Source: Thysanoteuthis rhombus
Lineage: Eukaryota > Mollusca > Cephalopoda > Oegopsida > Thysanoteuthidae
Direction: 5' to 3'
Length of the DNA stretch: 64,000 nucleotides
Assembly (NCBI GenBank): GCA_963457665.1
Contig: OY735202.1
Location: forward strand, 77,653,142 to 77,717,141
Shown here piece by piece: positions 1,113-61,814 of this stretch; positions within the stretch are counted from its first letter, which is position 1, and each line of letters starts with the position of its first letter. Below the pieces are notes generated by a model. The model was given only the letters and a program-made list of their open reading frames with translations. It searched no databases and was not told where the DNA came from. Both the position numbers and the translations under genes were made by a program.

Positions 1113-1566
1113 AGGTCTAGATAGTCACTTAATAGAAACTGTCATGTGGCCATTATCTTTTGAGCAGCATGCTGTGTTGGGGATGATCAATTGAAAATTG
1201 GAAGAGGGGATGATTTACGAATAAATTCCTTGTCTCACCTTTTGTTGATCTGAGACCACTAGAAATGCTTGGATTTTCCCTAAAAATAACATGAATGATG
1301 CTGGACACAAAAATAGGGATCAATTTAGCATACAATTAAGTTGTAATTTGAACCCCCTACTAAAATTTATTTTAAGTGTTGCAAAAAACAAAAAAAAGCA
1401 TTTTTTTCTATACATAAAATAAATGAGTTTGTGTTGAAATTTTCAGCCTGCTAGCTCCTTTGTATATGTGATGGATGCATAGCCAGCCAGCTAGGCAGAA
1501 TTGCTTGAAAACTGAAAAAACCTCTATTAAAGGTTTTGGTGGCAGTTCTGGTTGACAATTTCTAAT
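1113..1566 (+). repeat. family A repeat, copy A1, near full length
   Basis: This is the first of 13 copies of an unidentified ~450 bp interspersed repeat. Landmarks in order are: a 5' block 'AGTCACTTAATAGAAACTGT'; 'CAGCATGCTGTGTTGGGG' followed by 'GATCAATTGAAAATTGGAA'; a mid block 'AGGGATCAATTTAGCAT'; 'TTTTTTTCTA' before 'ATTTTCAGCC'; and a 3' block with 'GGTTGACAATTTCTAAT'. The 5' 'ATAGAAACTGTCA' and 3' 'TGACAGTTTCTAA' are inverted, which hints at short subterminal inverted repeats as in a MITE. There is no coding capacity and no tRNA-like A or B box. Confidence 0.8.
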
Positions 1567-2689
1567 TCATGGCAATGATTTTTTATCCTTATCATGATCA
1601 GTTGTAAATCTTAGTCTTTGTTCATGTCATGGTTGCTTGTGTCAACAAAGGCTTTCATGACCATCAAGTGTAAAGCACTCCAGCCCTGTTTGCCCCACCA
1701 CCCTCAACGGATGCCTATGAGTGTAGAGCAATCTGGCGGCTGTAGTGTCTCCCAAATTTTTGTATGCTTTGCCGATTCCGAAAGTGTCCACTCAATCATT
1801 TATAACTTTCATCCTATTTCCACAAGCGCCATAGACTCTTTATTCAAGAGAAAATACTTTACCATGTGCTGGACCAGAACTGCCATCTTTATGAATGAAA
1901 GCCGTTCTCTGCAAACAATTTTGCATTAGCCTCGTCCGACCGACTCAGAAACCAATAAATCTCTATTCTAAGGGCAACCAAAAGATCTGTTTGGCTTTGT
2001 ATTTTTACTCTTTCTGAATATCAGAACATTTAGAAAACACGATAAAAAATTTCAAAAACATAATTTGTATAGATATTTTGATAAGTAATTTTCAATTAAT
2101 TCAACTCTTGAATTCATGCAAAGAAAATAGAATGTCAGTTTCTGGGAAATAATTATTGATTAAAATTATCTCCATTTGAATCCATTTGGTGAATTTTTTT
2201 CATTCAATTCACAGAAGGGTTCCACTATTGTTTAAACTCTTCATTGAACTGTTCCTCTGTCAATTACAAGAGGTTTATGAACTTAAGATTTAATATGTAA
2301 TTGTTGGGAAAGTAATTCCCTCAAAAGAACCAGAATTATAGCCTCATTCCTGCTCGCAGCTTCCTTTGGGAAGAAATTGGGACTGAACAATTTTTGTTTT
2401 CGCTCAAACACACATAACAGCCCTGATGTTGAACTGACCTCATATTCTGCTCTCATGGGGAGGTATTTTATTCATATTATACATCCCACAAGAAACAGTG
2501 CACTTCAAAATCTGCTGATAATGCAAAAGAACAATGCTCAAATTAACATAATATTTCATACAAATGACACAAATGAAATCTCTCCTCAGTTCTCAAACAA
2601 ATATGGTTCAGATTTGAATGATAGAGTCACAAAATGCATCAAAGCAACTGCTATAAGTGCAAACTGTTGATATGTAAACATAATTGGGT
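1567..2689. other. no gene recognised
   Basis: AT-rich sequence. Two open frames of about 100 codons (1618-1929 and 2377-2670, plus strand) have no recognisable domain. The second directly abuts a mariner fossil and may include its decayed 3' flank. Confidence 0.5.
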
Positions 2690-3160
2690 GCGATGTTGCG
2701 TGTTATTAGAGACATGCGCAAGTCTGTCAAGGTCAGTACTTTGCGGATAGAAGATTGCCTGCATACACCTTCCAACTTTCACCTCCATAAAGGTCTGGAG
2801 GGCTTAAATCAGATGATCGAGGTGGCCATAAACCATGGGAAATAATTTGATCCACAAATACCGGACTAGTTGCATTATCTTGCTGAAACCTTCATTTTGT
2901 TCTTCAGGCTCAGTTGATCTAAAAAAGAATCAGAGACATTGTATATGTACCACTTGGGTCTTAGACATAACACTTTCATCAAAACATATTGGAGCAATTA
3001 AATGCCACTTGGACAATATACAACAAACACTGACTTTTTTGATAGTAGAGTTGCTTTTCAAAAAGAGCATGAGGGTTTGTAGTGGACAACACTTGGGAAT
3101 TCTGACTGTTCATTAAGTCTAACGAATGAAACCATACTTCGTCAGCAAAGAATAGATTTC
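2690..3160 (-). mobile_element. mariner/IS630-type transposase fossil
   Basis: The minus strand encodes the catalytic half of a DDE transposase of the Tc1/mariner superfamily. Around 3100-3150 it reads FFADEVWFHSLDLMNSQN, matching the family's first catalytic block (F-x-D-E). Further on comes FQQDNATSPV with the second Asp (about 2885), then HGLWPPRSSDLSPPDLY with the third Asp (about 2780-2830). The reading frame is interrupted between these blocks, and the spacing between the second and third Asp is shorter than the usual 34 residues, so some sequence is lost. No terminal inverted repeats were identified. It is a dead copy; the family call is strong and the exact lineage is not settled. Confidence 0.85.
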
Positions 3161-3352
3161 AAATCGCATTGTTTACTTGTTATTGTGCAATCTGAGTCAA
3201 AGTTGTTTTTTTGTTACAACTAAAAAATCAAGATGAAGGTAAAAAAGAACTTGAAATGATTAAAGTTTGGTTCCAATACTTCATCTAATAATGATAATAA
3301 TATTAATTGATAAACATAAATATGCACTTTATGTAAATAATAATGGATATTA

Positions 3353-3391
3353 ATAATAATGATGATGATGACGATGATGATGATGATGATA
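3353..3391. repeat. (GAT)n microsatellite
   Basis: Imperfect trinucleotide repeat with interruptions, lying in AT-rich sequence (aataat repeats immediately to the left). Confidence 0.9.
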
Positions 3392-3930
3392 TGAATGTAA
3401 ATTTAAGTATAATGAACAATCGTTGCGTCAGAATTTGAAGTCATGCAAAAAAGTTTCCATCAAATAATAAATATGGTAAGAATGAATTCAATTCATAATT
3501 TCACCAGCGTTTTCCACTGGAAAACAGCTGAAATAGAGTGAAAAAATCAAGAATCATTTAGATTTTGGAGAAGAATTAAAGGTCGAAGAAGCTTTTAGAA
3601 GGGGGTCTAGTGGAGTACTGATGCCACTTTTTGAGTCTGTAGGCAAAACAGTATGACCAAGAGCACTCGAATGCCCAAACAAGCTAACACATTAATGAAG
3701 AAACAATCAAACACACACACATATGAAAAAGGATAGAACCCGTTACCATCTTTGATTACTACGGTTTATTAATATTTATATTTACATATTCCATTAGATT
3801 TTGCTAAGTGAGCTGTTCATATGCTTGTGAAATTTGCTCAAACGCCATTTTTGGAACACCCTGGATAACTTTTACTCAAGTAGAATTGCAGTGCAGTACA
3901 ACAGTTATCAGCAAAAGAAACAAAATTGGT

Positions 3931-4003
3931 AATATATATATATATATACATATATATATATATATATATATATATATATATATATATATATATATATATA
4001 TAT
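3931..4003. repeat. (TA)n microsatellite
   Basis: About 70 bp of alternating TA with one 'tatataca' interruption. Open frames encoding Ile-Tyr repeats here are artefacts. Confidence 0.97.
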
Positions 4004-4149
4004 GCATACATTAACTTTACACAAATATCTTCAGAAAGGCAGGCAGCCGATTCTCCCTGCTCTCTGTCACATTACCTGATATTTTAACTGAGATTGTCCT
4101 AAACACTCTTCTTTGTGAACAATTATAGCAATCTAGTGACAACACATTT

Positions 4150-4262
4150 TGTTAAGATATTTCGCAATGGGAAAGAGCCCTGGGAGAAGTGGATTCATGG
4201 CTCTTCCAAGAGCATTCATGTACAAGTTGGTTCGGCAATTTCACTTTCCATGCTGGTAACCA
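4150..4262 (-). repeat. SINE-like repeat, family E, copy 3
   Basis: It carries 'GGGAGAAGTGGATTCATGGC' and 'AAGAGCATTCATGTACAAG', matching the core of copies at 1-135 and 50272-50410. By the family's sense strand it is a minus-strand copy. More diverged than copies 1 and 2. Confidence 0.45.
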
Positions 4263-60870: not shown

Positions 60871-60919
60871 AGACCTGACTGAGTAAATCAATTGCACTAG
60901 TATAAAAGTAACCTATATT

Positions 60920-61013
60920 CATGTATGTGCAATGCATACATACATTGCCAATCAGACCAGCTTAAAACCTAAAGGAACCAATGTTGACAGTTTTGATAAC
61001 AGTTTTGGTTTTT
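60920..61013 (+). repeat. family A repeat, copy A12, 3' end only
   Basis: 'GCCAATCAGACCAGCTTAAA', 'ACCTAAAGGAACCAATGTTG' and 'GACAGTTTTGATAACAGTTT' match the last 90 bp of A5. Confidence 0.7.
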
Positions 61014-61049
61014 CTTACAATAATAGACTAAAGGCTCAAGCTTTAATAG

Positions 61050-61375
61050 ATTTCTATCCTCCTTTTTTCTTTATCCCTGATCTCCCCCCCCCGTCTTTTT
61101 AACTTATCTCTTATGGATGTCCCAGATGCTCTACGTTAGATTCTATTTAGATACTTGGAAATTCAGTTTTCTTTTATCATTTGTCTCTTTGATTCAAGTT
61201 TCCAAGATTACAAATTGAATTCTTACTTATCTCCACTTTCCTTTTTTTTTTTTTTTTTTTTCATCCTCCAGAAGTTTCAGTCTTGGGATTCATTTTTTTT
61301 CTTTTACCTTATTACATAGAAAACTGTTTATTATAATCATTGATAGTGTTATTGACATCAGAATCACTTGGTCTC
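61050..61375. other. pyrimidine-rich spacer
   Basis: Contains a C9 run near 61085, poly-T at 61241-61262. No gene. Confidence 0.4.
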
Positions 61376-61379
61376 AAAC

Positions 61380-61560
61380 ACTTTATACAAAACTAAAAAG
61401 AACTCAAAGAGTGCATAAATCTGCCAGTGCCATTGTCAGGTGGGTGAATGGATCTGCCCAGAAATCTAATCACTCCTTCTGTTGCCTTTTGTTGACCCTT
61501 TCACAAAATTTTATTGAACATCACTGGAAACCTATTTAGATATTGTTTAAACAGATATGA
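61380..61560 (+). repeat. ancient SINE body
   Basis: 'GAATGGATCTGCCCAGAAAT', 'CTAATCACTCCTTCTGTTGC', 'TGACCCTTTCACAAAATTTT' follow the order of a widespread invertebrate repeat in which 'aaatctaatc--ttcctt---ccattgcc' is followed by 'accaaatttcatcgaaatcc'. Family name not certain. Confidence 0.4.
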
Positions 61561-61569
61561 AATCTCAAA

Positions 61570-61814
61570 CTGTCTATGATGTATGAAGTATACAGGTTGC
61601 ACCAATGGAGTTAGAGGGCTGAAAATTCAAACAATTATGCCTTTTTTCTGTTTTTTTTTAAAATCCAATATTTTTTTTTTAGTTGTGGGTTCAATACTGA
61701 ATTGATTCCTTAGTTTGCATCCAACAGTGTTCATGTTTGCCCACCCTCAAAAGGGTATGTTGCCAAAAGATGTTGGTCATGTGGCTGTTTCTATTAAGTG
61801 ACAAACCAGACCTG
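61570..61814 (-). repeat. family A repeat, copy A13, partial
   Basis: Reversed: 'GGTTGCACCAATGGAGTTAG', 'AGGGCTGAAAATTCAAACAA', 'TGAATTGATTCCTTAGTTTG', 'TTGCCAAAAGATGTTGGTC', 'TTAAGTGACAAACCAGACCT'. Both inner and 3' parts are shortened. Forms an inverted pair with A12. Confidence 0.75.

Follow-up and report, generated by a model that had tools for sequence, protein, structure and literature searches.

An old and abundant non-coding repeat of the cephalopod Thysanoteuthis rhombus is probably a non-autonomous, Helentron-like transposon

What kind of element spreads as copies of about 450 bp through cephalopod DNA, leaves no target site duplication and carries no coding frame of its own? The question is raised by a 64,000-nucleotide stretch of the Thysanoteuthis rhombus genome (GenBank assembly GCA_963457665.1, contig OY735202.1, positions 77,653,142 to 77,717,141; hereafter the window), in which a prediction made from the sequence alone had placed 13 copies of an unnamed interspersed repeat, here called family A, and had proposed a miniature inverted-repeat transposable element (MITE). 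Our analysis points, with a probability of about 0.7, to a non-autonomous rolling-circle transposon of Helentron-like (HINE) type.

The family was delimited with a profile built from four copies (1113, 4313, 20406 and 27980), searched against the window and then iterated. The first profile matched six other near-complete copies at E values of 1.5e-42 to 6.2e-58 and the remaining fragments of the original prediction at 4e-8 to 7.1e-16; the best control values were 0.31 in five simulated windows that kept the first-order base statistics and 7.3 in the reversed window. Iteration gave 17 matches, all below 1e-9 and 67-84% identical to the majority consensus (Table 1). They comprise the 13 predicted copies, all recovered on the predicted strands with starts within about 26 nt and one of them, at 61569, split in two, together with three extra fragments. 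Their total of 4,810 bp, or 7.5% of the window, agrees with the earlier estimate of about 4.7 kb and 7%. A Pfam search of 10 open reading frames of the window gave nothing near the cut-off, and exact 20-22-mer scans of viral contigs gave no family A match. The description of family A as interspersed and non-coding holds, and we regard it as a non-coding mobile element.

The genome-wide consensus, derived from 122 matches (120 of them distinct), is about 454 bp long and sharp at both ends; in the orientation of the original prediction it reads ACAGGTCTGG...GGTTTCTAATA. The flanks outside ACAGG...TTTCTAATA (88 5' ends and 71 3' ends) had base composition in common, but no sequence, so that these copies do not represent an internal segment of some longer element. 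Close to the termini the consensus carries TAGAAACCGTCA as a perfect inverted repeat of 12 bp, set back by 22 nt at the ACAGG end and by 3 nt at the opposite one. Only one of 5,000 shuffles was as good, and interior pairs reached at most 8. Single copies carry the two repeats with on average 1.7 and 1.9 mismatches, against 6.4 at a control place; decay of the CpG within the motif would explain their CTG and CCA variants. The inverted subterminal motif noted earlier, weak in a consensus made from the window alone (0.018 by shuffling), thus becomes perfect over 12 bp in the genome-wide one.

Where the element inserts can be read first from its flanks. On the ACAGG side the frequency of A reaches 0.53 in the last 10 nt, compared with 0.34 at -40 and 32-37% beyond 40 nt (88 ends), and runs of at least four A's fall within the last 15 nt of 50% of 58 copies, as against 14% of 3,000 random sites in the window. 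The other flank shows no clear enrichment past the element's own AATA. The earlier observation that there is no A-tail has to be qualified: an A-rich flank does exist, on the 5' side.

Uninterrupted paralogues give a more direct view of the target. Queries made of joined flanks were answered for six copies (L033, L021, L052, L013, L071 and L049), and empty sites were found for L021, L071 and L033. Copy L021 sits in another repeat. Of its 40 rows, 38 run across the junction and two are the copy's own halves; in the 18 sites fetched the empty consensus is CAACAAAATTATATA, where the copy itself has CAACAAA(A)-element-AATCATATA, and the two flanks (profile coordinates 65-106 and 105-186) overlap by only 2 positions. 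Copy L071 sits in a third repeat, and 11 of its 38 non-self rows run across the junction; of the 12 rows fetched, one does not. Here the filled site is CAACACAAAA-element-AAAATACCC and the empty one GACAAAAA(A)TATAG. For L033 there is one spanning site, 87% identical over 47 nt and free of duplication. Family A thus inserts within or next to an A-run and, in the two well-covered cases, adds 1-3 A's at most; none of the three sites shows a target duplication. The two repeats that serve as empty-site targets, around L021 (L093-L110) and L071 (L111-L121 and window positions 42637-42862), are themselves unnamed and multi-copy.

The lack of target duplications reported in the original prediction is upheld by these sites and by a scan of 58 distinct copies for a duplication of fixed length (15 by 35 offsets at both ends, 12 lengths from 1 to 15). 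The best z was 3.21, against a permutation 95% point of 3.63, and 21% of permutations reached it; a real 2-15-bp duplication at 65% identity would be expected to give a z of 8-22.

Empty sites with at most 1-3 added A's argue against fixed duplications of 4-15 bp and also against insertion of a short interspersed element (SINE) driven by the machinery of a long interspersed element (LINE). Such insertion, by target-primed reverse transcription with long and now decayed duplications, was the reading first favoured, on account of an A peak 13-17 nt before GGTCTGG at the 12 5' ends of the window (circular-shift test, 0.00015), and it was dropped on the evidence of the empty sites: no 10-20-nt duplication is present at those of L021 and L071, nor at the one of L033. 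Some copies, such as L013 and L024, do have flanks that resemble each other, in one setting the near flanks show an excess of z 4.5, and the genome holds LINE-type reverse transcriptases, of which 150 were scored among 33,150 candidates; 27 of the 150 have open frames of more than 1,000 aa, and these elements look recently active. Against a retroposon, the copies share no common tail, and the Rfam search (tRNA, 5S, 7SL and other models) gave no match overlapping any window copy at E values up to 10, so that a polymerase III head was not found and an origin from tRNA, 5S or 7SL was rejected; the 5S matches of the window belong to another repeat. Nor is there an excess of 5' truncation, with 2 5'-truncated copies against 5 3'-truncated in the window and 1 against 3 in six further stretches, part of the 3'-truncated ones being internal deletions. 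We consider a SINE-like retroposon very unlikely.

A cut-and-paste transposon could have given rise to family A as a MITE, if the inverted repeat were unusual in being subterminal and the target duplication were of 2 bp (AA/TT) or shorter; this reading is improbable to a lesser degree. It would account for the inverted repeats near both ends, for empty sites that are 1-3 A's shorter than the filled ones in both resolved cases (L021 and L071), and for the recurrence of internal deletions that keep both ends, which make some copies seem 3'-truncated (for example L018, L027, L030 and the window copy at 27977, whose element proper stops near 28327 with the 3' end TTTCT, 348 nt from start to TTTCT). 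On the other hand, the very ends have no inverted repeat (ACAGGTCTGG as against TATTAGAAAC), a fixed-length duplication was absent at every offset tested in the 58 pairs, and the target is an A-run with no fixed palindrome. The MITE of the original prediction, understood in the usual sense as a derivative with terminal inverted repeats and a fixed-length duplication, is not borne out: since the repeats are subterminal and the empty sites differ by at most 1-3 A's, a Helentron-type rolling-circle derivative fits better.

That class has been described in similar terms. In the part of the account of Thomas et al. (2014, PMC4067079) used here, HINEs, including DINE-1, carry subterminal inverted repeats of 11-15 bp, one of them 2-4 nt from its end, and Helentrons and HINEs insert without target duplication into T-rich or TT sites, with T's in varying number at the ends. 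Family A likewise is non-coding and of high copy number, uses a T-rich target with extra T's at its ends and no duplication, and has 12-bp inverted repeats, one of which lies 3 nt (TAT) from the 5' terminus when the element is read in reverse orientation. The joint presence of subterminal inverted repeats, a T-run target and no duplication is the published Helentron/HINE signature, and we conclude that family A behaves as a HINE does. The element should probably be read in the direction opposite to that of the original prediction.

Read on that strand, the element begins with 3 nt, the subterminal repeat, one or two units of the AAAACTGTCAACC type and a complementary GGTTTCT; there follow a tetranucleotide microsatellite (CTGG, CTAT, GTAT), the non-coding body, the second subterminal repeat, 22 nt and T-rich host DNA. 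GGTTTCT is complementary to part of the 12-bp repeat and, in the consensus, lies with the microsatellite inside the end that has the terminal-most repeat, 18 nt after the subterminal repeat, or about 30 nt where there is an extra unit (counted by eye). As far as the partial description in PMC7492417 goes, the oyster HINEs have a subterminal repeat, an inverted repeat and a microsatellite on the left and a subterminal repeat with a palindrome on the right. By that described layout the Cg_HINE/Pearl elements of bivalves resemble family A in their mollusc host, in T-rich sites without duplication, and in the subterminal repeat, complementary repeat and tetranucleotide microsatellite at one end with a second subterminal repeat at the other (PMC7492417). 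They differ in an array of central tandem repeats of about 160-170 bp each, none of which was seen in family A, and in the distance from subterminal to complementary repeat, 1-12 nt as against 18 (about 30) (PMC7492417). Helitron2, which is mentioned in PMC4067079, shares asymmetrical inverted repeats and the lack of duplication, but is described with palindromes at both ends, which family A was not seen to have. Near 32011 the window also has a short GTCT/GTCC stretch (31780-31860, minus strand), just past the copy at 32011-32402, that resembles the GTCY microsatellites described for HINEs.

Transposition could then proceed as follows. An element of the form 5'-TAT TAGAAACCGTCAACC ... tetranucleotide microsatellite ... 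TGACGGTTTCTA TTGAGTGACTAACCAGACCTGT-3', followed by T-rich host DNA, would be acted upon at both ends by a Rep/helicase supplied by an autonomous relative, the 12-bp subterminal inverted repeats serving as marks of the ends. The element would be copied as a single strand, and this strand would be joined to the target within an oligo-T (oligo-A) run, with no duplication of the target.

Remains of rolling-circle Rep do exist in the genome, with 78 Helitron_like_N matches, 71 of them with stop codons. They would also suit a derivative of a canonical Helitron, with 5' TC, a 3' hairpin plus CTRR and insertion between A and T, as would the A/T-rich target, the lack of duplication and a CTAAT in the 3' end in the orientation of the original prediction. 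The 5' end in that orientation is ACAGG, not TC; in the opposite orientation a 3' hairpin was not found, and the 67 nt of the other end, folded only as the complement, gave a z of -0.9. Canonical Helitrons are not known to have subterminal inverted repeats, which weighs further against them, and of the alternatives considered we regard this one as the least probable. A conserved hairpin of the form CCCCCAC...GTGGGG was dropped as weak (-0.64 kcal/mol, 4 pairs); a 5-bp GTCAC/GTGAC pair, seen by eye, flanks the subterminal repeat with a loop of 17 nt.

Several observations weigh against the Helentron-like reading, and the first concern the ends. The inner repeat of family A lies 22 nt from the 3' end, whereas the spacing in mite HINEs is 38-60 nt, and the 3' palindrome of HINEs has no clear counterpart (both comparisons with the account in PMC4067079): in the last 60 nt of the consensus no palindrome was found (z -0.45, with 62 of 200 shuffles folding as well). 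Because palindrome and spacing both depart from the published pattern, family A is classed as a HINE variant and not as a proven member. An autonomous partner with family A ends was likewise not found at eight of the 78 Rep loci (about 3.4 kb each, two of them to 10 kb), where searches with the profile and for the ends reached no E value below 0.05 save for one ordinary family A copy in L123; in locus L091 the 12-mer is matched twice with at most 2 mismatches, as chance can give.

The remaining adverse points concern the target. The joined flanks of L052, L013 and L049 gave no empty site; those of L071 (profile positions 9-158 and 152-208) have 7 positions in common, within and next to the A-run; and within an A-run a 2-bp AA duplication is indistinguishable from none. 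In addition, the two flanks of a copy align better with each other than permuted pairs do (n = 58), with p of 0.003-0.014 over wider stretches and 5e-5 for 30 against 60 nt, which is what a long duplication of variable length would produce. The first 20 nt gave p 0.23, smaller sets gave 0.05-0.33 (9 copies) and 0.006-0.24 (30 copies), the 5' flank from -60 to -37 gave 0.31, and alignments anchored on the A-run showed no excess (0.54-0.56). Since the excess persists at a distance of 60-100 nt (p 0.006) and of 60-120 nt (p 0.0025 in the 30-nt setting, with z 2.9 there against 4.5 nearby), we read most of the resemblance as shared composition; taken alone it is ambiguous and would leave room for decayed duplications in some of the copies.

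Family A extends well beyond the window. The genome comprises 2.73 Gb in 514 contigs, and searches with the 1113 copy and with the consensus were scored at 40 places each, of 4,879 and 6,866 candidates at first look; L001-L008 and L048, which duplicate other loci or the window, were dropped from counts, L048 accounting for 2 of the 122 matches mentioned above. Six further 10-kb stretches on six contigs, picked by round coordinates and one of them containing 735 N, held 12 matches covering 5.26%. Scaled up, this would correspond to about 140 Mb and some 0.5 million matches, some being fragments, with a counting error alone of about a factor of two either way. The copies are old: with CpG sites set aside and copies shorter than 250 model positions left out, 88 long copies, most of them best matches, lie at a mean Kimura two-parameter distance of 0.19 from the consensus, and the window's 10 long copies at 0.22. 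Two loci hold tail-to-tail inverted dimers, L047 (1-401 +, 777-408 -) and L043 (115-384 +, 616-343 -), whose halves stop at near-identical consensus positions (about 410 and 280) and form large near-palindromes.

Among the copies of the window, the piece at 32441-32507 directly precedes the copy at 32011-32402 in the same orientation; a nested insertion there was rejected, as no continuation scored above controls. The 3' piece at 60922-61010 and the rest at 61569-61815 stand in opposite orientation about 560 bp apart and together may be one copy, in the arrangement that a short inversion would leave. A second repeat of the window, in five copies, has a head like 5S rRNA (two matches to RF00001 above the gathering score, three below) and a body common to the copies, about 250 bp in all; it is probably a 5S-derived SINE. 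The 100-aa open frame at 18212-18514 (minus strand) presumably resembles the GIY-YIG end of a Penelope-like element, with no Pfam match. Elsewhere in the genome, mollusc haemocyanin domains gave 52 matches, against none in 14 control genomes, which places the host among the molluscs, and nine equal-score haemocyanin beta-sandwich matches spaced 2,174-2,184 nt apart (G000:C25:56607734-56625492) are a tandem array of haemocyanin exons.

Table 1. Repeats located in the window (positions from its first letter; con., consensus positions; new, absent from the original prediction).
Feature	Position	Strand	E value	Identity
Family A, full length (con. 3-467)	1113-1570	+	1.2e-111	77%
Family A, full length, 3' end degraded	4311-4743	+	2e-97	79%
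Family A fragment (con. 179-330)	9610-9761	+	1.9e-24	
Family A fragment (con. 177-252), new	10084-10153	+	5.8e-10	
Family A, near full length	19290-19696	-	8.9e-88	82%
Family A, full length, nearest consensus of the long copies	20405-20859	+	5.6e-120	84%
Family A fragment (con. 235-328), new	25334-25428	-	5.2e-10	
Family A copy	27977-28428	+	3.1e-83	
Family A, near full length	32011-32402	-	4.2e-80	
Family A 5'-end piece (about con. 2-115, looser alignment), new	32441-32507	-	5.2e-15	
Family A, near full length	35419-35815	-	3e-92	
Family A, 3' end TTTCTAAT kept after short deletion	41678-42076	+	4.6e-83	
Family A, internal deletion	43261-43657	+	9.6e-81	
Family A without last quarter (con. 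1-332)	52855-53154	-	5.4e-67	
Family A fragment (con. 358-450)	60922-61010	+	1.1e-15	
Family A, con. 1-79 and 177-384, internal deletion	61569-61815	-	1.5e-19 and 1.8e-29	
Family C, uninterrupted copy, paralogous empty site of the L071 insertion	42637-42862	-	2.1e-50 (empty-site profile with this copy among its input)	
5S-headed repeat (Rfam RF00001)	26409-26608	+		
5S-headed repeat (Rfam RF00001)	38086-38203	-		
5S-headed repeat (Rfam RF00001)	48232-48350	+		
5S-headed repeat (Rfam RF00001)	55922-56040	-		
5S-headed repeat (Rfam RF00001)	57645-57749	-		

Short non-coding repeats of this kind often receive no class at all or are assigned to the SINEs or MITEs. As far as the part of the Octopus vulgaris report used here goes, LINEs (12.9%) and SINEs (11.6%) are the most abundant orders of repeats in that mollusc genome, which is likewise rich in short non-autonomous elements (PMC13282606). 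Six 15-18-mers of the family A consensus had no occurrence in open-access full text, four inverted-repeat motifs occurred in the open-access literature only in papers unrelated by title, and none of the 15 papers listed, of 3,722 retrieved for cephalopods, octopus or squid, mentions Helentrons. Fixed ends, a defined target and the absence of a duplication now give family A a class, and with it about 5% of the genome if the sampled stretches are typical.

Rolling-circle elements are usually present in far fewer copies. It is possible, if somewhat doubtful, that one hairpin-less rolling-circle family, with an end structure unlike that of described Helentrons and Helitrons, gave about 5% of a 2.7-Gb mollusc genome; if true, this would be a load of roughly half a million copies, comparable to that of Alu, from the rolling-circle class. 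Family A also lends itself well to the question whether rolling-circle elements can do without a 3' hairpin, and, if it is common to several species, its old insertions would be markers for mollusc phylogeny.

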